This document shows positions 4,767 through 21,668 of a stretch of 31,070 bases of DNA, in pieces. The notes below the pieces were generated by a model. That model searched no databases, was not told where the DNA came from, and saw nothing but the letters and a program-made list of their open reading frames with translations. The translations under genes and the position numbers were made by a program. Numbering within the stretch: position 1 is the stretch's first letter; each line of letters begins with the position of its first letter. The DNA is from a virus. Where the stretch lies: IMG/VR virus record IMGVR_UViG_3300007072_000033, positions 1 through 31,070 of that record; one strand, 5' to 3'.

Positions 4767-7700
4767 ATCGCTACAAAAATTTGTGGTTACAGCGAATTAG
4801 ATGCAATTAGAAATGTAGATAGTTTATTACATACTAAAATACCTTTTTATATTTCTGCACCATATGTCTTTTATGGTGGTGATATTCCATTTTTTGATAT
4901 TTATGTGGAAGAAATTTATAATTGGTTTATTAATGAATATAATAAAGATATAAGTTTATACCACAATAAAGATCAAAATTATTATTCAACAATCACAGAC
5001 TATTATAAAAATCCTATTCTTTATGGCTATCTTTTATATTCTCCAACGTCAAAATACATAGGCAAAAGAAACTATACTCTTCAAAAAGCAGTAGATTTTA
5101 CCAAGGTAAATGCTGCTTGGAGAATTCCATACAAAAATATAATTCATGATCATTCTAAAACAAAAATTGATAACATTATTGAGCGTGGGTATTTTTGTAG
5201 ATTAGTTGAAACGGATGCTGTTTTTATAAAAAATATAATGGATGACATTTTAAAAAATAGAAAACGAGAAGCTGAATCTGCTAATAATGGTAATGATTAT
5301 TTTACTAGATATTTTAGAGAAACAGACTACAACGGATATCTAAGTGAGCCAGTTTTTCGTAGTCAAATGAGATTTAAAGCATGGAGTGTAAACCATTTAG
5401 CAGATGAATTAAAACAGCAATGGCTTACAAGACCTTATGTGTTCATGAGAACACACACAAAAAATCCTTATGTAAAACAAAATTTAATTAGTTTAAATTC
5501 TGATAGTCTTTATGACTCTGCTATAAATTCCATACGTCCAACTCTTCCAGCATTATTTATTACAGGAACAGGCGAACTTTGCTATGTTGATATGTTTACA
5601 GCAAAGGCAAGGAAGAAACTCCCAACACCTGATAATATGATGGGATATTATCAATTATTAAACTTGAATGGTGAAGTTATTACTCCGCAAGAAATTATTT
5701 GTAATTACTCTTTTAGAAAACAAACAGCATCTTCAATTTTTGACACTAATTATTTATTTATTTATAATGAAACAGCTACAACTAGAAGATGCTTGGTAAC
5801 AAATAGTAACTTAGTTCCACTATATGACATAGATTTTTTTGAAAAAGAAATAATAGAGGGTGCCTCAACTTTAACAATAAACCCAAAAATTACAGGCTGT
5901 GGACAACTAACATTACCTGATTATTGGTATGATCCATGTTTATTAAATGAGGAACATTCTTTTAATAACTATAGTTATTATGGTGATTTTAAATACATTG
6001 GAAAATTATTACCAGAATTTAATGAAGACGCAACAGCATACAACTATGATTTGTTAGAATTCTTAAAAGAAAGAAGAGTACACAACCTAAATAAAGATGC
6101 AACAGATGTAGCTGAATTTATAAAGAGTATTATTGATACAGATGCAATGGAAAATACTGAACAAACTGTCTGCCAAGAAACAACTGATGGAACACCACAA
6201 AGTAATATTACTGAATATAAATACCCGAAACTTAATAAAATATATTATTATGATAGTGTTACAAAGCAACGAGCGTTTCGTTATGATCCTGCTAGTCAAG
6301 AAAATGAACCTTATGTACAAATAGCTTCTATCTGTGGGTTGACTCCTGTAGAGTCTTTAGTAGATTTATCATCTTATGTTTTATATAGTACAAATGATTC
6401 ATTTTTAACAAGTTATGAAACCTATGCTAATTTTAATGACTCCATAGATGTTGGTCCTATTTGGTTTTTCTGGGGTGTAACGGCTGCAACAGATGCCGGT
6501 CCATGGTCTACAAGTTATCCATCTAGTGAGACATTAATACTAACAAATTTACAAGTTCTGTCCACAAGTTCTGCTGGTGATGTAATATCACAATCAAAAG
6601 AAAATGATCCTGATACTGGCAATGCCGTATTAACTGATGCTATAATGACATTAAGAGTTACGGTAGAAACACAAAAACTTCAGTATATGCTAAAAAAAGG
6701 TATTGTTGTAGAAGAAAATGCAGATGGAGAAAAATATTTTGTAAAATATGATGTAAATATAATAACTGCACCAAGATGTGGATTGTATTCAGGAAACAAT
6801 GAAGTAGTTGCCAGATTTAAAGTTCAGCGATATACGGGTGTTAATTTTGATACATTAACAGAATCTAGTGTCATTACCCTTTACAATGGTTATGGAGCAA
6901 AAACAACGGTATCAAAATATGAAAACACAAAAGACTACTTTAGATTTTTATATTATTTAGATTCATATACAGAAGTTAAAGATGGTAAGTATACTAATAA
7001 TTATAGAATTTATTCAGAGAATGTGAAAATTTATAGCAGAATTAAAGAAGATATCACAATTAGAAAAACAATTGCACCGGGAACTATCTATGATCGTGGA
7101 GATTGGGAATATCCCGGCTATACATGGAAATATGATCCTGATACAAAAACATTTGAAACAAAATCTATCAAAAAAGATTTTGACTACATTAAACCATTGT
7201 ACTATTATACCAACACACTAACTGAATTAACAAGTACATATAATCAACCAAACATTATTTCAAAGGTTTCCTTTGACCGTTTAGGAATAGCAAGAAAATC
7301 TTTTGTGAGTTCCTGCACGAATGTTGGTGAAATGGCATCTAGACAATATGGATTTAATGAATCAGTTAAGGCCGGATTAAATAGTACTGAATTTAAAAAA
7401 ATTGATAGACTATTCTCTCATGGAATATTACTTAATAATAATGATTTTTATACGTTTAAACAACAACCCTGCCATGCTAGTAGAATTCCTTCAGATAATC
7501 CATATGTACCATCAGAGTATGATTTGTATGCTGATCCACAAACCAGCGAGACAAAAGCCTACCCAAGATTAAATAGTTCAATACATAGTGCCACAAAACT
7601 CTTTGCTATAGAACAAGAAAAAGCAGACATTACTGATGAAGAAAACAATGAAATATCAAGTAAAAAACTGATAGCTACTGGTTGGGACTTTAGTTTGGAA

Positions 7701-8774
7701 CCACCAAAAAGTTTAATTCATCCAATTCCAACACAATTTACATTAATTGGTCCTTGTTATCATAGTCCTGTACAAGCGGCAGCATTTAAACAATTCACCA
7801 CAGATATTGGAAGTTCTGGTGGTGGTTATCCTTACTATGGTGGTTCAGTAAGTTTATATACTGATGATCATATGATGATCTATTACATACCAAGTGATCC
7901 AATTTTGGATGAAGACATAGTATCCACAATTGGTTCTTCACGAACTCTTGATTTTCATTTCAAAGGAATAGACAGAGGATTACAATTAAGCAACAAAGAA
8001 CGCTTCATGGTATTAACAGAATCCTCAAATTTTAGTGGTTTTATTGATTTAGTTAACGAAGAAGACCCAAGTAAAGAAATAACATTCCCCGATTCAAGAC
8101 TATTACGATTTTCAACAAATGCACGATTTGGTTTGTACAGATTGAAAATAAAAGATGATCTTGAAATAACAAAAAATCCGAAAACAGGTGAGGCAGTTTT
8201 ACGTGTTGATCAATCTCCACTAATTAAAATTTGGCCTAGAACATTACCTATAAAATATCAACAAGATACTGATGGCGTATTTCAAAAAGTATCAGATTGG
8301 AAATTAGGATTTTTACCTGCACCAAAGAGCAACTATCATTTACGCTTTTTCCGAAAACAAGAACCAGATGAGTTAATTAATCTGGAAGAGCCATTTGATC
8401 CACAATATGGCATAATGACGATTAAAAAAATTGAAAGCACAAAAACAGGTGACAATGATCTATCAGAAGTTTCAATGGAAGTCAGCTTTTGGAACATAGC
8501 ATATGGCGGAGCACCTTATATACCAAAGAGTCTTAGTAAAAATAAACAAATCGTTGTAGAGTTCAATGGTGTTGGTTCTTATCCTTATTACTGGTATGTT
8601 GTAAACACGAATAAAACTGAAACCATTGCTCTATTGTTACCTTATGTAGAAGATGGCAAAGTTAACAAGAAAAAGAAAAAACTGGTCACACTTGGAACTG
8701 CTGGAAAATTTAAACTTTGTGTAACTGACGGTGCGGGAATATTTTATGCTTCTTCGGAAATAGAAATAAAATAA
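4767..8774 (+). CDS. Giant unknown protein, about 1335 residues, apparent ATC start
   Basis: The frame is open from 4767 to the TAA at 8772-8774. The first usual start codon in frame is GTG 4905, which has no ribosome site. However, the 46 codons before it look coding (IATKICGYSELDAIRNVDSL). An AGAGG site at 4754-4758 sits 8 bases before the ATC at 4767. One base change (ATC to ATG) would give a standard MATKI start, so I place the gene at 4767. No family is recognised. It is rich in Y, N, D and T, mostly beta-like, with no signal peptide or obvious membrane helix. Glycine/tyrosine patches occur around the codons at 7810-7850 and 8570-8600, and a KKKKK run lies near the end. Size, composition and place after the terminase suggest a virion or adhesin-type protein, but this is inference. 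Confidence 0.8.
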   Translation: MATKICGYSELDAIRNVDSLLHTKIPFYISAPYVFYGGDIPFFDIYVEEIYNWFINEYNKDISLYHNKDQNYYSTITDYYKNPILYGYLLYSPTSKYIGKRNYTLQKAVDFTKVNAAWRIPYKNIIHDHSKTKIDNIIERGYFCRLVETDAVFIKNIMDDILKNRKREAESANNGNDYFTRYFRETDYNGYLSEPVFRSQMRFKAWSVNHLADELKQQWLTRPYVFMRTHTKNPYVKQNLISLNSDSLYDSAINSIRPTLPALFITGTGELCYVDMFTAKARKKLPTPDNMMGYYQLLNLNGEVITPQEIICNYSFRKQTASSIFDTNYLFIYNETATTRRCLVTNSNLVPLYDIDFFEKEIIEGASTLTINPKITGCGQLTLPDYWYDPCLLNEEHSFNNYSYYGDFKYIGKLLPEFNEDATAYNYDLLEFLKERRVHNLNKDATDVAEFIKSIIDTDAMENTEQTVCQETTDGTPQSNITEYKYPKLNKIYYYDSVTKQRAFRYDPASQENEPYVQIASICGLTPVESLVDLSSYVLYSTNDSFLTSYETYANFNDSIDVGPIWFFWGVTAATDAGPWSTSYPSSETLILTNLQVLSTSSAGDVISQSKENDPDTGNAVLTDAIMTLRVTVETQKLQYMLKKGIVVEENADGEKYFVKYDVNIITAPRCGLYSGNNEVVARFKVQRYTGVNFDTLTESSVITLYNGYGAKTTVSKYENTKDYFRFLYYLDSYTEVKDGKYTNNYRIYSENVKIYSRIKEDITIRKTIAPGTIYDRGDWEYPGYTWKYDPDTKTFETKSIKKDFDYIKPLYYYTNTLTELTSTYNQPNIISKVSFDRLGIARKSFVSSCTNVGEMASRQYGFNESVKAGLNSTEFKKIDRLFSHGILLNNNDFYTFKQQPCHASRIPSDNPYVPSEYDLYADPQTSETKAYPRLNSSIHSATKLFAIEQEKADITDEENNEISSKKLIATGWDFSLEPPKSLIHPIPTQFTLIGPCYHSPVQAAAFKQFTTDIGSSGGGYPYYGGSVSLYTDDHMMIYYIPSDPILDEDIVSTIGSSRTLDFHFKGIDRGLQLSNKERFMVLTESSNFSGFIDLVNEEDPSKEITFPDSRLLRFSTNARFGLYRLKIKDDLEITKNPKTGEAVLRVDQSPLIKIWPRTLPIKYQQDTDGVFQKVSDWKLGFLPAPKSNYHLRFFRKQEPDELINLEEPFDPQYGIMTIKKIESTKTGDNDLSEVSMEVSFWNIAYGGAPYIPKSLSKNKQIVVEFNGVGSYPYYWYVVNTNKTETIALLLPYVEDGKVNKKKKKLVTLGTAGKFKLCVTDGAGIFYASSEIEIK

Positions 8775-9600: not shown

Positions 9601-10215
9601 ATGAATAAAAAATATCGTGAAGCCAATAAAGAAAAAATTAAAGTAATAAAAAGAAAAGAATATCAAAGAAATAAAGCAAAATACATACAAAAATCAAGAT
9701 TACACCACTATAATCTTAAAAAAGAAGTTCTAAATCATTATGGACATAAATGTGTTTTTTGTGGAAACACTTACTATGAGCACTTAACAATAGATCACAT
9801 ATTAAATGATGGTGCAAAGCATCGAAAACAAATGACTAAAAATTTATATTCAGTAGTAAAAGAACAAGGTTTTCCTTCAAAGTATCAACTATTATGTTGG
9901 AATTGTAATTGTACAAAAAATAGAAATTTTAATAGCAATAATTCCAAAATAAGATTTAAATTGATTGAATTATTAGGTAATAAGTGTACTTGCTGTGGTG
10001 AAACAAAAAAAGAATTTTTATGTATTGATCATATTAATGGTGGTGGAACAAAAATTTATAGAAAATTAGGTTCGTATCAAGTTTATAAAGATTTATTATC
10101 TCGTGGTGCTCCGAAAAATGAGGTACGTGTTCTTTGTTATAATTGTAATAGTGCTAAAGGTCTTCATGGTTATTGTCCACACAAGACCCTTCAAGAAGAT
10201 AAAGAAAAAGGATAA
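9601..10215 (+). CDS. C-terminal part of split HNH endonuclease, two HNH modules
   Basis: 204 residues from ATG 9601, although the frame is open back to 9550 and no ribosome site precedes the ATG, so it is probably not an independent start. After a basic helix there are two similar modules. Module 1 (about 41-107) has C51/C54, D65-H66 and C99/C102. Module 2 (about 119-187) has C129/C132, D143-H144 and C179/C182 in LCYNCNSAKG. Each follows the CxxC...DHI...G...LCxNCN..K layout of small phage HNH nucleases, which bind zinc and nick or cut DNA. The HRK after module 1 is replaced by IYRK in module 2. These are often free-standing homing enzymes. It overlaps no other gene, and the exonuclease gene follows after three bases. 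Confidence 0.78.
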   Translation: MNKKYREANKEKIKVIKRKEYQRNKAKYIQKSRLHHYNLKKEVLNHYGHKCVFCGNTYYEHLTIDHILNDGAKHRKQMTKNLYSVVKEQGFPSKYQLLCWNCNCTKNRNFNSNNSKIRFKLIELLGNKCTCCGETKKEFLCIDHINGGGTKIYRKLGSYQVYKDLLSRGAPKNEVRVLCYNCNSAKGLHGYCPHKTLQEDKEKG

Positions 10216-10218
10216 AAA

Positions 10219-10944
10219 ATGAAAAATGCTGAATTAGTTGTTAAAAAACCATCAATATTATTTTTTGATATTGAGACATCAAATCTCCGCGCAAATGTGG
10301 GGAGGGTATTATGTATCAGTTATGCAATTAACGATGGAAAAATACAAACTTTATCTTTAACTGATAATATGAAGAAATTTAAAACTGATCCAACAAATGA
10401 TAAACAATTAATTGAGCGTTTTTATGAAATTGTATGTAATGTAGATATAATTGTGGGTTGGTATTCTAGGCGTTACGATTATAAATTCTTAAATACCAGA
10501 TGTTTAGCCTATGGATTGCCTCCTATGCCAACAACCATATCTCACATAGATTTGTGGGAACATTGTAGAGCAAATTTTGCTTTAACAAGTAATCGTCTTC
10601 AAACTTTCCAAGAATTTACACACCTAAATGATAGTAAAACACGCTTAGATTTTGATGTTTGGGTTCGTGCTGCTGCTGGACATATTCCAAGTTTACGTTA
10701 CATTGAAAAACATTGTTATCAAGATATTGCAGTTTTACGCCAAGCATATAAGAAAATGTTGCCTTTTATTAAAAATCATCCAACAATGAAAACCATTATT
10801 AATGGACCAAAACCAATTTGTGCTAATTGTGGCTCTGAAAATGTACACCGTAGGGGCAATTACATAACTATAGCAAACCATTTTTATCGTTTTCAATGTC
10901 AAAATTGTGGATCGTGGTTTAAGGGCTCAAAAGTTAAAGAATAA
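10219..10944 (+). CDS. DnaQ/RNase H-like 3'-5' exonuclease with C-terminal zinc ribbon
   Basis: A 241-residue protein. The N-terminal domain shows exonuclease motif I, D17-x-E19 in ILFFDIETSNL. Motif II has D87 in IVGWYSRRYDYKFL, and motif III has D169 in HCYQDIAVLRQAY. At the position where this family usually has tyrosine (four residues before D169) there is H165, with Y167 nearby. After a short linker, a four-cysteine zinc ribbon (C201/C204 and C227/C230) ends the protein, a fusion seen in phage exonucleases of this kind. The likely role is proofreading or DNA/RNA trimming during phage replication. It lies directly before the flap nuclease gene (five-base gap). No DNA polymerase domain is attached and none is seen in the window. 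Confidence 0.82.
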   Translation: MKNAELVVKKPSILFFDIETSNLRANVGRVLCISYAINDGKIQTLSLTDNMKKFKTDPTNDKQLIERFYEIVCNVDIIVGWYSRRYDYKFLNTRCLAYGLPPMPTTISHIDLWEHCRANFALTSNRLQTFQEFTHLNDSKTRLDFDVWVRAAAGHIPSLRYIEKHCYQDIAVLRQAYKKMLPFIKNHPTMKTIINGPKPICANCGSENVHRRGNYITIANHFYRFQCQNCGSWFKGSKVKE

Positions 10945-10949
10945 TTATA

Positions 10950-11903
10950 ATGACACTTATTGTAGTAGATGGTAATAATCTTCTACATAGAATGATGAAC
11001 GTTCCTGAGTTTGGCCTGATGCACTATAATAATGTGCCTACTGGTGGCATGTTTGGCACGTTAAATGCCCTAAAAAACATAGTTCAAAGTGTTCCCCAAC
11101 AACAAGTTAAAGTCATCGTTGTTTGGGATGGTAAACGTAGTCAAAGACGTTTATCTGTATTTCCTGAATACAAGCAAAATCGTAACAAACTTCACGATGA
11201 AGATTTTGCTGAATACATGGTTCGTTTCAATGTTCAACAGAAAATTCTACGAGAACAGTTATTACCTGCACTCGGTATTTGTTCCATAACAAATATTGAT
11301 CGTGAAGGTGATGATATGGTTTTTCTAATTTGTAGCCTCTACAGACAAGACAATAATATCTTTGTAATATCTGAGGACAAAGATTTATTGCAATTAATAG
11401 CACATTTTCCAACTGTTACAGTCTACCGTCCAATTGCCAAACAAACTGTAAATGCCAGAAATTTTGAAGATCAATTTTTTGTAAAACCTAATCAATATCT
11501 AATTTACAAGGCTTTAAAGGGAGATAAATCTGATAACATTCCCGGTATCCCCTTGATTGGTCCCAAAACAGCCGAACGAGTATTAAAAGAATCGCAACCA
11601 CGCGACTTTAATGAGTTTTTCGTATGGGTTAAGGCCCAATATGAAAAAGAGGTCTTAAAACACAAGGAAACGCGAATTGCGGGGATTTATAAAAATTGGG
11701 GTATCTTCAGCCGTAACTTAGAGCTAGTTGATTTGTCACGTGAAGAATTCACTAACCATGAACAAGTTGAAATTTCTAAGGCAATAGATGCACACAAAGT
11801 GCAATATTATGAAGATTATTTTATGCAACTTTGCCAAACATACGGATTTGAGCAATTTATTCGTGAAAAAGAAATTTGGAAGATTGTTTTTAATGTTCAA
11901 TAA
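10950..11903 (+). CDS. 5'-3' exonuclease / flap endonuclease (FEN family)
   Basis: 317 residues with the full acidic set of bacterial and T5-like 5' nucleases: D7 (IVVDGNNLLHR), D60 (VVWDGKRS), D117/E119/D121/D122 (IDREGDD), D143/D145 (SEDKDLLQL) and D192/D195 (GDKSDNIPGI). The last motif leads into a helix-hairpin-helix (GIPLIGPKTAERVL) that holds the duplex. The family removes RNA primers and cuts flaps, using two metal ions. Length fits a free-standing phage enzyme. The start ATG 10950 has only a weak ribosome site, so translation may be coupled to the exonuclease gene just upstream. It is the last gene before the 244-base repeat-rich gap. Confidence 0.93.
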   Translation: MTLIVVDGNNLLHRMMNVPEFGLMHYNNVPTGGMFGTLNALKNIVQSVPQQQVKVIVVWDGKRSQRRLSVFPEYKQNRNKLHDEDFAEYMVRFNVQQKILREQLLPALGICSITNIDREGDDMVFLICSLYRQDNNIFVISEDKDLLQLIAHFPTVTVYRPIAKQTVNARNFEDQFFVKPNQYLIYKALKGDKSDNIPGIPLIGPKTAERVLKESQPRDFNEFFVWVKAQYEKEVLKHKETRIAGIYKNWGIFSRNLELVDLSREEFTNHEQVEISKAIDAHKVQYYEDYFMQLCQTYGFEQFIREKEIWKIVFNVQ

Positions 11904-11929
11904 TATTATTATGTTTTATTTTGCAACAC

Positions 11930-12046
11930 AGGTAAACGTTCTAAGGGGTAAAGTTAATATATAAATCCTTTTGTTACAGAATTAACAGGTAACAGGTAAC
12001 AAATGTATAGGTCTAGACAGTCTAATATCTAATTGAACGTTTACCT
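11930..12046. repeat. Long-range inverted repeat with nested inverted repeat
   Basis: AGGTAAACGTTC at 11930-11941 is the exact reverse complement of GAACGTTTACCT at 12035-12046 (12 of 12 bases). Inside it, TTTGTTAC at 11970-11977 pairs with GTAACAAA at 11996-12003 (8 of 8). The centre carries overlapping ACAGGTAA direct repeats. It could be a pair of protein-binding sites or a large cruciform/RNA structure. Confidence 0.7.
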
Positions 12047-12101
12047 CACATGGTGCATGTGACACTACATATGGTATGGGAAAATTGAACACAGAAATTT
12101 C

Positions 12102-12129
12102 TTGACAAACTGACTTTCAACAGTACAAT
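12102..12129 (+). promoter_or_regulatory. Sigma-70-type promoter P3
   Basis: TTGACA at 12102-12107 and TACAAT at 12124-12129, spacer 16. The sequence CTTGACAAACTGA is shared with promoter P4. The AAGGAG site at 12135-12140 and ATG 12148 follow, giving a very short leader. Confidence 0.8.
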
Positions 12130-12147
12130 GACAGAAGGAGATTTGTA

Positions 12148-12330
12148 ATGAATTTTACGTTGACACGAATTTCGCCTATGGGATATAAGGTGACTAAGGG
12201 ATCAATTGAAGCATTTGTCAGTTATGATTCAGCTACGGATACAGTTAAAGTGTTATCTGGTAAGTTATTTGAGAGTGAGTTAGCTACGGTCAAGGACGAA
12301 ATTAAGCGAAGAATCAGATTGGGATTTTAA
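12148..12330 (+). CDS. Small unknown protein, 60 residues
   Basis: Starts at ATG 12148 behind a strong AAGGAG site and promoter P3. The product MNFTLTRISPMGYKVTKGSI and onward looks like a small beta-rich domain with a C-terminal basic helix (DEIKRRIRLGF). I do not recognise it. The frame stays open after its TAA for 24 more codons to 12403-12405, giving protein-like sequence (NEWAKERDVAPNGTCDYFEK), possibly a relic of a longer gene. First gene of the primase cluster. Confidence 0.72.
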   Translation: MNFTLTRISPMGYKVTKGSIEAFVSYDSATDTVKVLSGKLFESELATVKDEIKRRIRLGF

Positions 12331-12401: not shown

Positions 12402-12593
12402 ATGAGTTATGAAACTACAGACTTTTCGTTTCGACTTAGGACTCTTTTTGAACAGCTACGCCTTGATGGAAAAAGCCGTGGTGGTGATATTCGATTAAGT
12501 TTAGAACAGCAAGAAGCAATTATTAAAGAGATTCAAAAAATTGAAGAGTCTCGTGATTATTATTGGGAAGAGAGTATGGGAGAGGATATTTAA
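12402..12593 (+). CDS. Small unknown helical protein, 63 residues
   Basis: ATG 12402 follows a good AAAGGAG site. The sequence is acidic and helical, with RLRTLFEQLRLDGKSRGGD, then a long helix LSLEQQEAIIKEIQKIEES and an aromatic/acidic tail (RDYYWEESMGEDI). No family is recognised. It ends seven bases before the primase-like gene, whose ribosome site (GGGAGAGGA) lies in its last codons, so the two are probably translated together. Confidence 0.7.
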   Translation: MSYETTDFSFRLRTLFEQLRLDGKSRGGDIRLSLEQQEAIIKEIQKIEESRDYYWEESMGEDI

Positions 12594-12600
12594 ATTTATT

Positions 12601-13809
12601 ATGCTTGAAGAGCAAAGTAAGAATCCATTCTTTACTGATTTGGATTATCAAGATTATTGTTTAAATGTTTTCAAGGATGAATACTCTTCTTGGAGCAATC
12701 TATCTATTTTGAGCAGAGAAGGTAATTGGTATACTTTTAAGAAGTTTAAGTATAGTATTCAGTCTGCACTTAGTAATTACATGAGTCGGTGTGAAGTTTT
12801 TGCCGCTTCTCCCGCTAGTTGTGGAACTACGCACATGGCGTGGTTCGATCTTGATTCACATTGTGATGATGTTGATAAACAAAAAGAAGCACTGCATATT
12901 ACAAAGATGATTTATCAGTACCTTACTCTTAATAACGTTTACCCAGAATTTGTCCAGTCTTCAACTGTTGGCAATTATCATTTGAGAATTCGTTTTGCAG
13001 AAGCACAGAGTAATGATTTTCTAACAGTCATTCAGAAAGGTATTTTGAGAGTATTGGAATTACCACGAAGCATTGAGTTTGGTCCTAAGAATCGTAGGCA
13101 GATACGACCTTGGTTTGTGGGCAATCATTTTAAGCCAGCAGGTAGAATTTTGCATAAAGGTGAACTTTGTAAGAATATTAAGTGTCTGTCTCATTTATTT
13201 AAAGTTGGTGATGAAATTAAAAATGAACATTTTTGTGAAAATGAGAGTGATTTTAAGATTGACAAGTACATACCCGATGGTTTATATTTGAAACGCAATT
13301 GTGCATTAATGCACCTTGTAGAAGATTGTGTTCGGTTTGGTTATTCCAAAGAACGAATTTTGGATCATGCCAAAGAGATTTATGCACGTGGTGTGGTGAA
13401 AGATTCTTTGGACAAGCATCTGTTAAGTTTTGAAGCAATGTATAATTATTATCATAGTCGATTTGGTTTTTGGGACACGTTTTGGAAAGTATATCCCAAA
13501 GGCAAGACTGTTGTAGAATTGTTAAATGACATGAGAAAGTATGCAAAGCAACACAACCTGACAGATTTTCCTTTGTCTGCTCGTGTTGTGGCTAAATATC
13601 AAGGAGTTTCAGTTAGAACTGCTTGGAAGCGATTAAAGGCATTAGAAACATATAATACTAATTGGACACAATTAGGTTCTTTGCCTTGTACTTCTGCTAC
13701 TATTACCGCTTCATTGCCAACTGCTGTATCTAACATTACTTTAAGTTTTGAACCACTTGTGGCAAAACGTGGAAATCGTTTTAGATCAACGAGATATAAT
13801 GTTTTTTGA
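12601..13809 (+). CDS. Primase-like protein of the archaeo-eukaryotic primase (AEP) superfamily
   Basis: I start it at ATG 12601. An upstream in-frame TTG at 12541 would overlap the preceding gene and lacks a ribosome site. The 402-residue protein shows AEP-type motifs in order: a D-x-D metal pair, D83/D85 in AWFDLDSH, then a helix. The second motif is S120-S-x-x-G-N-Y-H127-L-R (the sxH motif), and a third basic segment is EFGPKNRRQIRPW at about 159-171. A helix-turn-helix-like stretch at about 318-347 (LSARVVAKYQGVSVRTAWKR) follows a long helical linker. AEP enzymes make RNA or DNA primers and some are primase-polymerases. The assignment is from motif order only. A plasmid-type Rep protein of the same superfamily is an alternative. 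It lies in the replication region next to a possible origin. Confidence 0.62.
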   Translation: MLEEQSKNPFFTDLDYQDYCLNVFKDEYSSWSNLSILSREGNWYTFKKFKYSIQSALSNYMSRCEVFAASPASCGTTHMAWFDLDSHCDDVDKQKEALHITKMIYQYLTLNNVYPEFVQSSTVGNYHLRIRFAEAQSNDFLTVIQKGILRVLELPRSIEFGPKNRRQIRPWFVGNHFKPAGRILHKGELCKNIKCLSHLFKVGDEIKNEHFCENESDFKIDKYIPDGLYLKRNCALMHLVEDCVRFGYSKERILDHAKEIYARGVVKDSLDKHLLSFEAMYNYYHSRFGFWDTFWKVYPKGKTVVELLNDMRKYAKQHNLTDFPLSARVVAKYQGVSVRTAWKRLKALETYNTNWTQLGSLPCTSATITASLPTAVSNITLSFEPLVAKRGNRFRSTRYNVF

Positions 13810-13818
13810 TTTTTTCAC

Positions 13819-13846
13819 TTGACAAACTGAGTTGAATCATTACAAT
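13819..13846 (+). promoter_or_regulatory. Sigma-70-type promoter P4
   Basis: TTGACA at 13819-13824, TACAAT at 13841-13846, spacer 16. It sits in the 72-base gap before the DUF932-like gene, and its predicted start near 13853 rules out the ATG at 13852 as the working start codon. Confidence 0.82.
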
Positions 13847-13881
13847 ATACTATGGGTAAGTATAGACCAAAGGAGAGTCAA

Positions 13882-14979
13882 ATGTCAGATCAGGTAGAAG
13901 AAAAGAAGGAAGAGGCTGTTGTAAATACTGTTGACTTCATTACTAATGAAGCAGATACAACGTTTAAGACTTTGGAAGAGTGTTCCGAATTCTTAGCTTC
14001 ACAGCAACGTCAGACGCATCTTGTTGATAGGTCACAGTTTACAGACATTAAGTTAGGTAAGTCAAAGGAAAATAAAGTAACTATTGATTTTGGTCAAGGT
14101 GAAATTCCTTTGAATCGTACAGGGTTCAGCCGTATTTGTAAAATTACTAAGAGTCCTGAAAATTACTTAGCATCGTTACCACTTGAAAACATTCGTAAGG
14201 ATGTTGTGGCACGATTGCTGAATGACTCTAAAGTTAAACAGTTGAACTTTATTATCAAGAATGGACAGGTTACAGGTGTTGCTACAAAAGAGAATACTTT
14301 AAGTTCTCAAGAGTTTTTAAATCATGCATTTCAGACCAACCACAAGATTTTCAGAGGCATCGGTGTAGCTAATGAACGTCTTGTAGTTGACTTTACTACA
14401 AATGATGAACATTCACCACTTCCGAATGACGTGTTTGGATTTGGTGTTTCATGCATCCATGATGATTCCTCTGGTAATTTCCCAACTCTTTCACCTTATT
14501 CCTATCGTCTTGTTTGTGCCAATGGTGCTGTCCACATGAAGACATTGGGCAGTATTCGATTTGGTGCACGAATGAGTGCTGATAAGGTTTTTGAGGTTAT
14601 GCAGCAACGATTCGTGGAATTACCAAATCAACTTTCAACCAAATACCATGATGTTCTCCAAACGATGAATACAACTGTTATTTCTCCTGAAGAAAAGCAG
14701 TTTATTCGATCGTTCCTTGAAGATGAATTTTCATGGTCCGATAGTATTGATGGTTCAACTCAATTTGATGAGGCAATTACAAATAAGGAGAGTGCTAATT
14801 ATTATGATTTATTGAATGTTATTACCAGTTATGCAAACCAGTTAGACATTCGTACTCGTCGTGAAATTCAAATGTTGGCAGGACGTATGTTTGATTATTT
14901 TGACCATAGTTCCAGTGAGTTATTTAAAGGCTATTCAGAATTTAAGCGAATGAAGACGTTAGAGTTGGCATCGAAGTAA
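13882..14979 (+). CDS. DUF932-like phage/plasmid protein
   Basis: Start placed at ATG 13882 (MSDQVEEKKEEAVV), which has AAGGAG at 13869-13874. The in-frame ATG at 13852 lies at the predicted transcription start. The 365-residue product has an acidic N-terminus, then a segment RTGFSRICKITKSPENYLAS and, near residues 205-225, YSYRLVCANGAVHMKTLGSI. This resembles the C-x-NG core of DUF932 proteins, which are widespread in phages and plasmids and have no settled function. It ends with a helical region (YDVLLNVITSYANQLD-like). It follows its own promoter and may be made in quantity. No catalytic motif is evident. Confidence 0.58.
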   Translation: MSDQVEEKKEEAVVNTVDFITNEADTTFKTLEECSEFLASQQRQTHLVDRSQFTDIKLGKSKENKVTIDFGQGEIPLNRTGFSRICKITKSPENYLASLPLENIRKDVVARLLNDSKVKQLNFIIKNGQVTGVATKENTLSSQEFLNHAFQTNHKIFRGIGVANERLVVDFTTNDEHSPLPNDVFGFGVSCIHDDSSGNFPTLSPYSYRLVCANGAVHMKTLGSIRFGARMSADKVFEVMQQRFVELPNQLSTKYHDVLQTMNTTVISPEEKQFIRSFLEDEFSWSDSIDGSTQFDEAITNKESANYYDLLNVITSYANQLDIRTRREIQMLAGRMFDYFDHSSSELFKGYSEFKRMKTLELASK

Positions 14980-15003: not shown

Positions 15004-15555
15004 ATGGCAGAGAATGAGTTGGTTGTGGTTGTGGCAGATGTTCAGAATCTTTATCATGCAGCAAAGACATTCGGGGGAGGGAAAAAAGTAAATTATAAGC
15101 TGTTGATGCAAAAGATTTTGAATGGTCGTAAAGGTGGTATTTGTAAGGCGTATGCAGCACACAAGGATTATAAAGATTCCAAACGTTTTTATAATTCTTT
15201 ACGTGCAGCAGGCTTTGAAGTCGTTAGTAAGCGGATTATTACAAAGGTAGAGAATGGACGAAAACGACTCGTGCCACGCTATTTTGAAGTTGAACTTGCT
15301 ACTGATGTTATGGATGCTGCTATTAGTGATGAAAATGTAAAGACTGTTGTTCTTTGTACGGGTAACGGTTCTTACTCTTATCTCCTTGAACGTCTTAAGG
15401 AGTTAGGAGTTAACGTAGAGGTTTGGTGTTTTGATAAAGCAACAGCAGAAAGTCTGAAAGAACGAAGTACGTTCCATGAAATTCCTGCTGAATGTTTAAT
15501 GTCTGCACAAGAAGCAGAAAAGGTTGAAGAAAATGCCAGTTCCACAGGCACCTAG
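15004..15555 (+). CDS. NYN-domain (LabA/PIN-like) protein with degenerate active site
   Basis: 183 residues from ATG 15004, behind a GAGGAA site. The Rossmann-like NYN pattern is visible: VVVVADVQNLYHA with D12 and N15, FEVELATDVMDAAI with E95 and D101, and a later strand TVVLCTGNGSYSYLLERLKE followed by LGVNVEVWCF. NYN proteins are metal-dependent ribonucleases related to PIN domains. Here the usual SGDGDF-type motif reads TGNGSY, so both aspartates are replaced (N121, S123), and the usual D of the middle motif is E95. It may bind RNA without cutting, or cut by a modified site. It ends with an acidic tail overlapping the next gene by 23 bases. Confidence 0.72.
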   Translation: MAENELVVVVADVQNLYHAAKTFGGGKKVNYKLLMQKILNGRKGGICKAYAAHKDYKDSKRFYNSLRAAGFEVVSKRIITKVENGRKRLVPRYFEVELATDVMDAAISDENVKTVVLCTGNGSYSYLLERLKELGVNVEVWCFDKATAESLKERSTFHEIPAECLMSAQEAEKVEENASSTGT

Positions 15556-16729: not shown

Positions 16730-17236
16730 ATGGCTAGAGTTTACCAAACACGTAATGGTGAGTTTTTTGATTTGTCAATAGATCAACTGAAAGAAGAGTT
16801 GGCTGTTGTTTCCAAGGAGTTGTCTGCTATTAAGAAAGAACAGAAGACAAATAAGACAGAGGAAAATGAAGCAAAGCGTAAAGAGTTGAATAACAAGCGT
16901 ATTCGCATTTATGCTCGTATGCGAAAGCTGGATTACAAGGCTTCTGAATTCCGTGGTGGCAAGAATCCTGCCAAGGTTGAACCCATTGTGTCTCCTGAGA
17001 CTCAGGCTAAGTTGGATGAAATTGCCAAGCAGAAAGAAGCAGAAGATGCAAAAACCAAGCAGGAAATTACTGCTGACCATGCATTAGAACCTGAGAAGCG
17101 TACTTCTCAGCTTGAAGAGAAAAAAGATGAACAGCCAGTAGTTCAGTCAGTTGGTACTACAGGTACTTTAATTGTTTCAAATAAAAATTCGGATCAAAAT
17201 GCAAACAAGAGAATTATACTAAGTTTAAAACAGTAA
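16730..17236 (+). CDS. Coiled-coil protein, 168 residues
   Basis: Start placed at ATG 16730, with AGAAGGAG upstream. An earlier ATG at 16706 lies in the previous gene. After MARVYQTRNGEFFDLSIDQL, residues 20-80 form a long charged coiled coil (EELAVVSKELSAIKKEQK and on). A K/E-rich middle and a low-complexity tail follow, with a short strand at the end (NKRIILSLKQ). I do not recognise a family. It ends in TAATG with the glycosyltransferase gene, so the two are tightly linked. Confidence 0.72.
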   Translation: MARVYQTRNGEFFDLSIDQLKEELAVVSKELSAIKKEQKTNKTEENEAKRKELNNKRIRIYARMRKLDYKASEFRGGKNPAKVEPIVSPETQAKLDEIAKQKEAEDAKTKQEITADHALEPEKRTSQLEEKKDEQPVVQSVGTTGTLIVSNKNSDQNANKRIILSLKQ

Positions 17237-18174
17237 TGAAAATAGCAATTGTTAGCACATGGAATGAGTGTTGTGGCATTGCAGAATACACTAAGGATTT
17301 AGTGTATGGTCTGCGAGAGAAAGGCCACAGTGTTCATGTATTTGCTAATTTTCCAAAATTAAAAGCTGAACCAGATGAAGAATTTGTAACAAGGTGCTTT
17401 CATGTACCTTATTTAGATAATATACATGAAACAGATATTTCATTTGTTGAACAGTTATTACAATATGATATTGTACATTTCCAGTTTGAAACCAGTTTAT
17501 ATCATCCAGCTTGGTTTCCAAATTTGGTGAAGGAACTTTTTGGCAAAGTTCCAATTGTATTCACAATGCATTCATCTGGAATCTGGCCTAATTTTGATCA
17601 GGGATTTGTTTCACGATATATAACTCATGAGCCTATGCCTTGGTATTCAAATTCTGCTGTAATTCCAATGGGTATAAAGTTTTATGATAATACTACTGTT
17701 GGAAATCCTAAGTATATAGTTAGCTTTGGCTTAGGACGTAATAATGATGATTTTGTTAGAAAAGCTATAACTGGCACAGAAATAGAGTTTTATACCACGT
17801 ATGGTCACCACAAATGGCTGAGTAAACAAGACCTTGTGAAGGAAATACAAAGAGCATTTTCCGTTAGTTTGATTTACCCACCTGTTGGAGCATCTGTTAG
17901 TTCTTCTGCTGCAAATCTTGCATTAGGTTGTCATCGCGTTCTTTTCTGTTCTCCTACCAATTGGTTTAAACATGTAAACCATTATCCGGCTGTGTATTCT
18001 GTTGATACAACAGAACGAATGAAAGAAATTATTACAGATATTGCAGAATCAAATGATTATCAATCAGATTTATTACACGAAATTGCTTCTCGTAAGGATT
18101 ATATCTGTAATGAGGGACGGGATTACGATACTTTCGTTAACCGTCATATTACAGTTTATAAAAATTTGTTGTAA
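17236..18174 (+). CDS. GT-B fold glycosyltransferase (GT4-like)
   Basis: 312 residues beginning MKIAIVSTWNECCGIAEYTK, matching the CGIaeYt acceptor-side start of GT4-like enzymes, followed by G-H-x-V-x-V-F (GHSVHVFANFP). YDIVHFQFETSLYH and VPIVFTMHSSGIWPN are typical of the N-terminal Rossmann domain. In the C-terminal domain, residues ANLALGCHRVLFCSPTNWFK stand where donor-binding residues lie, although the classical E-x7-E pair is not clear. It should transfer a nucleotide-activated sugar. Target could be phage DNA, a virion protein or a host surface molecule. No sugar-nucleotide synthesis genes are in the window. It overlaps the coiled-coil gene by one base. Confidence 0.8.
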   Translation: MKIAIVSTWNECCGIAEYTKDLVYGLREKGHSVHVFANFPKLKAEPDEEFVTRCFHVPYLDNIHETDISFVEQLLQYDIVHFQFETSLYHPAWFPNLVKELFGKVPIVFTMHSSGIWPNFDQGFVSRYITHEPMPWYSNSAVIPMGIKFYDNTTVGNPKYIVSFGLGRNNDDFVRKAITGTEIEFYTTYGHHKWLSKQDLVKEIQRAFSVSLIYPPVGASVSSSAANLALGCHRVLFCSPTNWFKHVNHYPAVYSVDTTERMKEIITDIAESNDYQSDLLHEIASRKDYICNEGRDYDTFVNRHITVYKNLL

Positions 18175-19723: not shown

Positions 19724-20308
19724 ATGTCATGGTTGCAGAAATTAGCAGTTTTATTAAAAATTTCAGATCGAAGTGGTCAAGACCCTAACAGGATTTATAA
19801 TAGCAAAGAACCTAAACAAGACTATTCTCTAACTGAAAAAGATCCAAAAATTCTTAAAGATACTGTTGAGGATACTATTGTCTCTTCTGAACCAAGAAGT
19901 GACAAAATGTTAAATAGTGAGTCTCACGATGACACTAATGATGAAATTCTCAAGATGTTTTGGAATGAAGACCAGCAAGAGCATTTGTTCAATGAGCCTC
20001 TTGACAAGGTAAACGTTATTACAGATACGAATACGGTTAATCCTATAAATAAGCCACCTACCTATGACTTAGTGGGGTCTTCACAAGAAAACGAAGAAGA
20101 TAGAAAATTTAACTTGATTTCCAAGAAGGTTGATTGTATAATAACATTAGAAGAACTAGAGAAGGAAAATCCTACTCTGGCTGAATACTTGTCTAGTTTT
20201 GGAGTTAAGACATTAGACAAGACAGTAGTAGCTTCTACATACCATAAACTTTGTGTGGAAGCGGCTAGACAAGAAAAACCACTTTCAGAGGTTTTGAAAC
20301 GTGTTTAA
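19724..20308 (+). CDS. Unknown 194-residue protein upstream of sigma factor
   Basis: ATG 19724 has AAGGAGAG upstream, right after the terminator. The product opens with an amphipathic helix (MSWLQKLAVLLKISDRSG), then a long acidic, probably disordered middle, and a C-terminal helical part (ITLEELEKENPTLAEYLSSF to the end). No family is recognised. It overlaps the sigma-like gene by eight bases, so they are likely co-translated. An anti-sigma or partner role could be imagined from that coupling, but nothing in the sequence shows it. Confidence 0.7.
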   Translation: MSWLQKLAVLLKISDRSGQDPNRIYNSKEPKQDYSLTEKDPKILKDTVEDTIVSSEPRSDKMLNSESHDDTNDEILKMFWNEDQQEHLFNEPLDKVNVITDTNTVNPINKPPTYDLVGSSQENEEDRKFNLISKKVDCIITLEELEKENPTLAEYLSSFGVKTLDKTVVASTYHKLCVEAARQEKPLSEVLKRV

Positions 20309-21668
20309 AGTTATTGCCAATGAAGTGTTAGGAGAAGGGACTGTAATATTTTATCAAAATCCTGTTACAAACGATATCGTTTACAATATTGATGGTGTAG
20401 ACAATCAGAAATTGGTTAGTTGGCACGGAATTCGTGAGGGTGTGGTAGGGTTTCCAACTTGTATTAATCACATGGATTTATGGCTGAACAGTGTTTACCA
20501 TCGAAATGAGTTGGAAGGATTAGCTAAATTTAAAGACGAAAGTGACGATGCTTGGGATTATAAAGAGAGGGAGATTCTAGCAAAATTTGCTACGTGGCAA
20601 CGTGTAGCAATTTTTGGTAGAATTTCTGCTGACGGTGGTGTGTTACAATTTATTAATACTACTGGTAATATGGATAAGTCTAAAGAGATTATTGAACATA
20701 TGTTAAATAAGGGGTTGGTGGAAGAAGCAACTCATTTGTTTATTAATAATACTGATTTTGATACTGTGGGTAAATTTTTGTTGGTTAGTGCGCAATGTGC
20801 GCTTTTTGCGAGAGAACAAGAAAAGTTAGAAGGAGAAAGACCAGTGTTGACATCAAAACTGTTGATTGAAGCTCAAATGGAAGACGAGAAACAAGGTAAG
20901 CAGCAGCATACAGATGAACTTTTAAGTGTTCTTGAGCCATGGAGAGCATTAAAAGCTAAATTGAATGATCCCAATCTATCTGATGAACAGAAGGATGAAA
21001 TTAAGCAGCAGATGAAGGAAGTTTCTGCTCCTGTAATGAATTGGCTTTACGATGACTATTATCCATTAATTGTTCGTGAGGTTGCAAAATATACTAAAAA
21101 TTACAAAACACGTGAAGATGAATCTCCAATTGATTATTTTGCTCCTGCTGTTCTCACTGGCCTTACTAAGAGTTTTTTAAATAACTTTGATCCTTCCAGA
21201 GCAACAATTTCTACTTTCGTTGGTTCACAGGCTGGTGGTTTGGCTAAAAATATGTTAAATAAACAGCGCAGTCAAGATAAACAATATATGACCGTTGGGC
21301 CAGCTTTTGCTGACGATGACGGTGGTGCTGAAGCTGGTTCTGCTGGCGATGTGGCTGGTAGCAATGACCCTGTTGCGAATGTTACTGAGCCAATGTTTGG
21401 CGAAGGTCCACGTGAATCTTCCCCTTTGGAAAATGTGTTAGGTCCAGTAATTAAGCAAATTGAACCTGTTCTTGCACCAGATGAATTAGATATTGTTAAG
21501 AAATATTTTTACGATAATATGACTTTAGACCAGATTGGTAAAGAGCGTAATGTAACGCGAGAACGAATTCGTCAGATTATTCAGGGTATTATTCAAAAGT
21601 TACAAATTCCTGAAATAAAGCAACGTCTTGGTTTGGCTAAGAAGAAATTATTCTTGAGTATTAAGTAA
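20301..21668 (+). CDS. Sigma-70-like transcription factor with extra N-terminal domain
   Basis: 455 residues from GTG 20301, with AGAGG at 20287-20291. Sigma region 2 is visible at about 248-325: helix YPLIVREVAKYTKNYKT, a D-YF-x-x-A core helix, FDPSRATISTFVGSQAGGLA and NMLNKQR, matching the F-D-x-S-x-G-x-x-FSTY signature. Region 4 at about 385-437 is clear: TLDQIGKERNVTRERIRQII, the -35-binding helix-turn-helix. A G/A/D-rich linker (335-375) replaces region 3. Residues 1-180 form an unknown domain not normal for sigma factors. It would redirect host RNA polymerase to phage promoters, possibly the TTGACA-N16-TAYAAT set here. It is far larger than small phage sigma factors such as T4 gp55. Confidence 0.85.
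   Translation: MFKVIANEVLGEGTVIFYQNPVTNDIVYNIDGVDNQKLVSWHGIREGVVGFPTCINHMDLWLNSVYHRNELEGLAKFKDESDDAWDYKEREILAKFATWQRVAIFGRISADGGVLQFINTTGNMDKSKEIIEHMLNKGLVEEATHLFINNTDFDTVGKFLLVSAQCALFAREQEKLEGERPVLTSKLLIEAQMEDEKQGKQQHTDELLSVLEPWRALKAKLNDPNLSDEQKDEIKQQMKEVSAPVMNWLYDDYYPLIVREVAKYTKNYKTREDESPIDYFAPAVLTGLTKSFLNNFDPSRATISTFVGSQAGGLAKNMLNKQRSQDKQYMTVGPAFADDDGGAEAGSAGDVAGSNDPVANVTEPMFGEGPRESSPLENVLGPVIKQIEPVLAPDELDIVKKYFYDNMTLDQIGKERNVTRERIRQIIQGIIQKLQIPEIKQRLGLAKKKLFLSIK

Follow-up and report, generated by a model that had tools for sequence, protein, structure and literature searches.

A probable, very divergent AEP-superfamily protein with a Rep-like layout in a large phage

Does a phage gene whose product matches no known protein family encode a primase, and what would such an enzyme do in its phage? 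The gene lies at positions 12601–13809 of IMG/VR record IMGVR_UViG_3300007072_000033, of which positions 1–31,070 were analyzed here (the window). A preliminary description of the sequence had proposed an AEP-superfamily primase-like protein beside a possible origin. Our analysis indicates that its most likely product is a DNA-priming enzyme of the archaeal/eukaryotic type, very divergent and fused to a DNA-binding tail like those of plasmid replication initiators.

The reading frame and its phage

The reading frame proposed earlier is real: positions 12601–13809 of the plus strand form an open frame with an ATG start that encodes 402 amino acids (candidate P0001), and a TTG-started version of the same frame reaches back to 12541. 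The phage to which the window belongs, as a fragment, is also represented by the 194,473-bp contig IMGVR_UViG_3300022554_000002 (the 194-kb contig), with 99.99% identity over the 17,125 bases compared. In that contig, the gene occupies positions 120953–122158 on the minus strand, and its protein product is identical.

This identical copy was the sole sequence relative of the protein found in Pfam, PHROGs, NCBIfam, PADLOC, the PDB sequences, phages, plasmids, and viral contigs. Searches of viral and genome contigs with the whole protein and with a core fragment yielded no further homologue, and a tblastn search of phages and plasmids returned a single, spurious phage match (E 7). Three scans of viral contigs with degenerate DNA motifs gave in-frame matches that, when read, were all unrelated to the protein. 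The route to relatives via PolA, the terminase, and the neighboring exonuclease led to distant phages only, and the gene was absent from four viral contigs searched in full. A Pfam match to Phage_holin_T (E 0.011) was rejected because it was under the cut-off and did not suit a sequence that is charged and soluble-looking.

Motifs, domain order and predicted fold

The published motifs of AEPs are hhhDhD/E, sxH, and hD/E (PMC4538821), and motif IV is an Arg followed six residues on by a nucleotide-binding Asn or His, as in R231/N237 of PolpTN2 (PMC5862659). In the 402-aa protein, AWFDLD (residues 80–85; 12838..12855, plus strand) provides the hhhDhD form of motif I, with D83 and D85, and GNYH (residues 124–127; 12970..12981, plus strand) provides motif II as N125-Y-H127. 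The protein therefore carries motifs I and II as defined for the AEP superfamily, both exactly where the preliminary description had placed them. The third motif had been described as basic, but it is more than that. The hE pair I158-E159 (13072..13077, plus strand) fits the metal-binding motif III, for which it is a candidate by position. The basic residues agree instead with motif IV, for which the candidate is R169-PWFVG-N175 (13105..13125, plus strand), an Arg with an Asn at +6. This spacing is that of the RepE family and of PolpTN2, and R169 and N175 agree with the motif IV of the PrimPol-PV1 supergroup, which includes RepE/RepS and PrimHYQ. Other landmarks are FDLD (82–85), RRQIR (165–169), and GNH (174–176). 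The putative catalytic core would span approximately residues 33–185 (12697..13155, plus strand), where alternating strands and helices are predicted around motifs I–III with low confidence and to which the AEP matches given below also point.

When the 402-aa protein was shuffled, the bare pair DxD ... GxxH appeared in 3.0% of the resulting sequences; among the 31 long frames of the window, no other has it. When the hydrophobic context, the acid of motif III, and R-x5-N of motif IV were added, the proportion fell to ∼0.15%, a figure that is optimistic because this fuller pattern was composed after the sequence had been seen.

Behind the putative core, a helical region resembling PriCT-1 (KRNxxLxxL...G) extends over approximately residues 228–297 (13282..13491, plus strand), with predicted helices at 234–245, 250–263, and 274–297 in the order found in RepE. 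It is followed by an HTH region at approximately residues 304–352 (13510..13656, plus strand). The HTH-like region reported earlier is present, but its match to Pfam HTH_11 is weak (E 0.033 with the whole protein and 0.0098 with the C-terminal part, both under the curated cut-off). The predicted helices and this weak match would together give the order PriCT-HTH, with the PriCT_1 model (PF08708) unmatched in the protein. A PriCT-HTH layout without a helicase is that of RepE/RepS, PrimHYQ, and ColE2 Rep (PMC5862659).

We compared the spacing of the landmarks with that in seven RepE-family plasmid initiators. Their order was the same in 7/7, and the spacing was similar. The distance from Arg to Asn was six residues in all seven and in the 402-aa protein, DxD to His/Gln was 33–39 residues vs. 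44, and Asn to the RN of PriCT was 66–72 vs. 57, whereas His/Gln to Arg differed more clearly (51–54 vs. 42). RepE/RepS of the Inc18 plasmids (e.g., pAMbeta1) and PrimHYQ have the order AEP, PriCT-1, HTH and no fused helicase (PMC5862659), as the predicted layout of the 402-aa protein would, but motif III of RepE/RepS is Gln (PMC5862659) rather than the candidate Glu, and profile comparisons were not significant. The RepE profile gave an hhalign Prob of 0.3 and −1.6 bits in unfiltered HMMER, below the scores of some shuffled sequences, and its only hhalign segment, also not significant, falls on the HTH of RepE. ColE2 Rep has the domain layout predicted here; however, the 402-aa protein matches no Pfam AEP or plasmid Rep family.

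No AEP model in Pfam, PHROGs, NCBIfam, or PADLOC matched the protein, and the Prim-Pol, RepB_primase, and PriCT_1 models (PF09250, PF16793, and PF08708) found nothing in the whole contig at E-values up to 10. The comparison with AEP family HMMs that the preliminary description had proposed was thus run, and no family profile matched; because of this, the protein is not assignable to any named AEP family. The zinc finger and TOPRIM domain of DnaG-type primases are absent from it.

Because there were no homologues for an alignment, AlphaFold was run on the single sequence and the AF2 models were poor (pLDDT 38 for the full length and 33 for residues 1–215). When the weak full-length model was compared by Foldseek with 350,542 PDB chains, the RepB′ primase (3H20) ranked first, over the whole length of RepB′. 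CRISPR-associated CAPP Prim-Pol took ranks 3, 5, 6, 13, and 14, human PrimPol rank 9, and the LigD polymerase domain rank 19; many other places were taken by generic RRM/ferredoxin folds. In a viral library, a Prim_Pol protein ranked first, baculovirus LEF-1 primase 12th (probability 0.75, the highest among the matches listed), and a phage DNA primase 34th. All E-values were > 0.02. With the model of residues 1–215, mechanosensitive channels and eIF4E stood above the AEPs, CAPP being 6th and yeast primase 50th. Four AEPs without sequence kinship would rarely rise together by chance, and we therefore take these matches as good evidence for an AEP core, though not as conclusive.

RepB′ of plasmid RSF1010, the best full-length match, has an AEP core with a helical domain C-terminal to it, the arrangement predicted here, and acts as a stand-alone site-specific primase. 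In contrast, the searches showed no sequence similarity between the two. Members of the RepB′ family have Gln where the 402-aa protein keeps the His of motif II (PMC5862659), and RepB′ is described as an AEP with PriCT-1 but no HTH tail (PMC5862659), whereas the 402-aa protein has an HTH-like tail.

The AEP-like core proposed earlier is supported by motif geometry and by what a weak model retrieved, but not by sequence profiles. The reading rests on the fit of motifs I–IV, the order of AEP, PriCT-like helices, and HTH, and the Foldseek results, and is the most likely one; we consider the AEP fold fairly well supported and quite probable, and the protein probably a very divergent AEP with a Rep-like layout.

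Replication genes, neighborhood and intergenic region

The 194-kb contig encodes a DnaG-type primase with zinc finger and TOPRIM (phrog_47, E 1.9e-34), a DnaB helicase (phrog_19, E 3.2e-59), and PolA. These three genes are clustered ∼50–60 kb from the 402-aa gene, dnaB being ∼50 kb away. A RecA-like gene, SSB, and SbcCD-like genes (the last recognized by eye) lie further along. The polymerase (L008:654-3329, minus strand of the 194-kb contig) is a UDG-PolA fusion with an N-terminal UDG (E 1.1e-20) and DNA_pol_A (E 3.5e-78), and its best phage relatives have < 30% identity. The DnaG-type primase rules out the 402-aa protein as the phage's only primase; if it is a primase, it is the second one. 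With these three replication proteins encoded in the same phage, the suggestion that the locus might define a novel replication system loses weight.

A phage with both primase types is already known. Phage 0305phi8-36 (218 kb) carries a single AEP and a single DnaG primase, each in a different arm of its genome (PMC2147016), and the present phage is likewise a large one, with its AEP-like gene and its DnaG gene in separate regions. However, the AEP gene of 0305phi8-36 adjoins dnaB and its product matches PF01896, whereas the 402-aa gene is distant from dnaB and its product matches no Pfam AEP family.

Upstream of the 402-aa gene are a 3′-5′ exonuclease of the PolB/DnaQ kind (10219–10944; phrog_403, E 1.3e-44) and a 5′-3′ exonuclease (10950–11903; phrog_107, E 7.9e-37). 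Before these, positions 9601–10215 encode, among phage genes, an HNH-like protein with repeated CxxC/H motifs and a weak HNH_5 match, probably a homing endonuclease; the 194-kb contig also has ORFs that by eye resemble LAGLIDADG-type homing endonucleases. A 1289-aa protein (4905–8774) had no Pfam or PHROG match. Directly downstream of the 402-aa gene is a 375-aa protein (13852–14979) that matches only phrog_1362, a family of unknown function, and that weakly (E 2e-06); beyond it are a phage-borne NYN-domain nuclease (15004–15555; Pfam E 5.6e-20), a glycosyltransferase family 4-like protein in the middle of a phage gene cluster (17236–18174; E 5.4e-10), and a 455-aa protein with a C-terminal sigma-70 region 4 (20301–21668; E 1.5e-10), a possible phage sigma factor.

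The 244-bp intergenic region at 11904..12147 contains a promoter, an inverted repeat, and tandem copies of CAGGTAAC, and is a hypothetical target of the HTH. The sigma-70-like promoter (TTGACA-16-TACAAT, 11/12; 12102..12129, plus strand) lies upstream of the 402-aa gene and two small plus-strand ORFs, one of 60 aa (12148..12330) with no family match, which is probably in the same transcription unit as the 402-aa gene, and one of 63 aa (12402..12593) directly before that gene, with no credible family match. The perfect 12-bp inverted repeat (11930–11941/12035–12046) had a counterpart in 0.4% of shuffles; CAGGTAAC occurs in two tandem copies, and the motif was not enriched. The possible origin of the preliminary description gained no direct support: GC skew shows no sign change at 11904–12147, and with the repeat motif CAGGTAAM not enriched, an iteron-type origin is unsupported. 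The region may equally be an operator. Identical promoter cores TTGACAAACTGA stand on either side of the 402-aa gene (12102–12116 and 13819–13833), both with a 16-nt spacer to TACAAT, and the second precedes the next gene.

Possible roles of the protein

We put the chance at about even that the 402-aa protein is a Rep-like primase in an accessory role, probably specific for an origin or another site, comparable to ColE2 Rep, RepE/RepS, and PrimHYQ. The reading frame, its motifs with their spacing, and the DnaG, DnaB, and PolA genes of the same genome are observed, whereas we infer the AEP fold, catalysis, and site-specific binding; a role of the protein or of 11904–12147 at an origin is weakly supported. 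As such a primase, the protein would bind a specific site through its HTH, perhaps in the repeat-bearing intergenic region ∼500 bp upstream of the gene. The PriCT-like helical and HTH parts would open the DNA locally, as reported for the corresponding parts of ColE2 Rep (PMC5862659), and the AEP core would lay a short primer, with D83, D85, and E159 holding metal and H127, R169, and N175 holding the nucleotide. The phage's own family-A polymerase would extend this primer, after which priming and unwinding at the fork would pass to its DnaG and DnaB; the neighboring 5′-3′ exonuclease could remove primers. ColE2 Rep is likewise reported to make an origin-specific primer that is followed by a family-A polymerase (PMC4538821), and this phage encodes a PolA of its own. 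In contrast, elements with RepE/RepS and PrimHYQ AEPs lack a replicative helicase of their own (PMC5862659), whereas this phage has one.

The main alternative, which we consider unlikely, is an AEP primase-polymerase that serves repriming, damage tolerance, or repair rather than origin firing, making primers ahead of blocked forks from within a nuclease cluster. The two exonucleases upstream and the repair-type AEPs among the Foldseek matches (CAPP, human PrimPol, and LigD) agree with this, but the tail, with its HTH and PriCT-like parts, suggests that the protein binds specific sequences as Rep proteins do, and RepB′, the best match over the whole length, is a primase of replication. The HTH-like tail, the inverted repeat upstream, and the position of the gene between two copies of a strong promoter core would also suit an AEP-derived or RRM-like DNA-binding protein that does not prime, e.g., an early autoregulator of the operon; this is less probable still, since the putative catalytic and nucleotide-binding residues are all intact and a pure regulator needs none of them. 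Only slightly lower do we place a coincidental resemblance of motifs in an unrelated fold. The frequency of the bare motif pair in shuffles, the absence of any matching family profile, the poor models, and the mixed Foldseek list from residues 1–215 would allow for it, but four distinct AEP proteins stand in the top 20 of the PDB chains, primases reach three of the ranks given above in an independent viral library, and four motifs coincide with the PriCT/HTH order. That the protein is the main replicative primase, as its AEP motifs and DNA-metabolism neighborhood might suggest, is already disfavored and very improbable given the DnaG-type primase clustered with DnaB and PolA.

The Rep-like primase has a bolder form, which we regard as possible but doubtful: a new AEP family in which a phage-borne Rep-type initiator primase fires a dedicated origin and hands over to the DnaG/DnaB/PolA replisome of the phage, a division of labor between two primases. 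If the Rep-like reading is right, a large phage would combine an initiator primase of the plasmid kind with a complete replisome of the bacterial type, and the reason for which some big phages retain two unrelated primases would become testable in one gene. The gene would also mark a lineage of AEPs that escapes current profile libraries.
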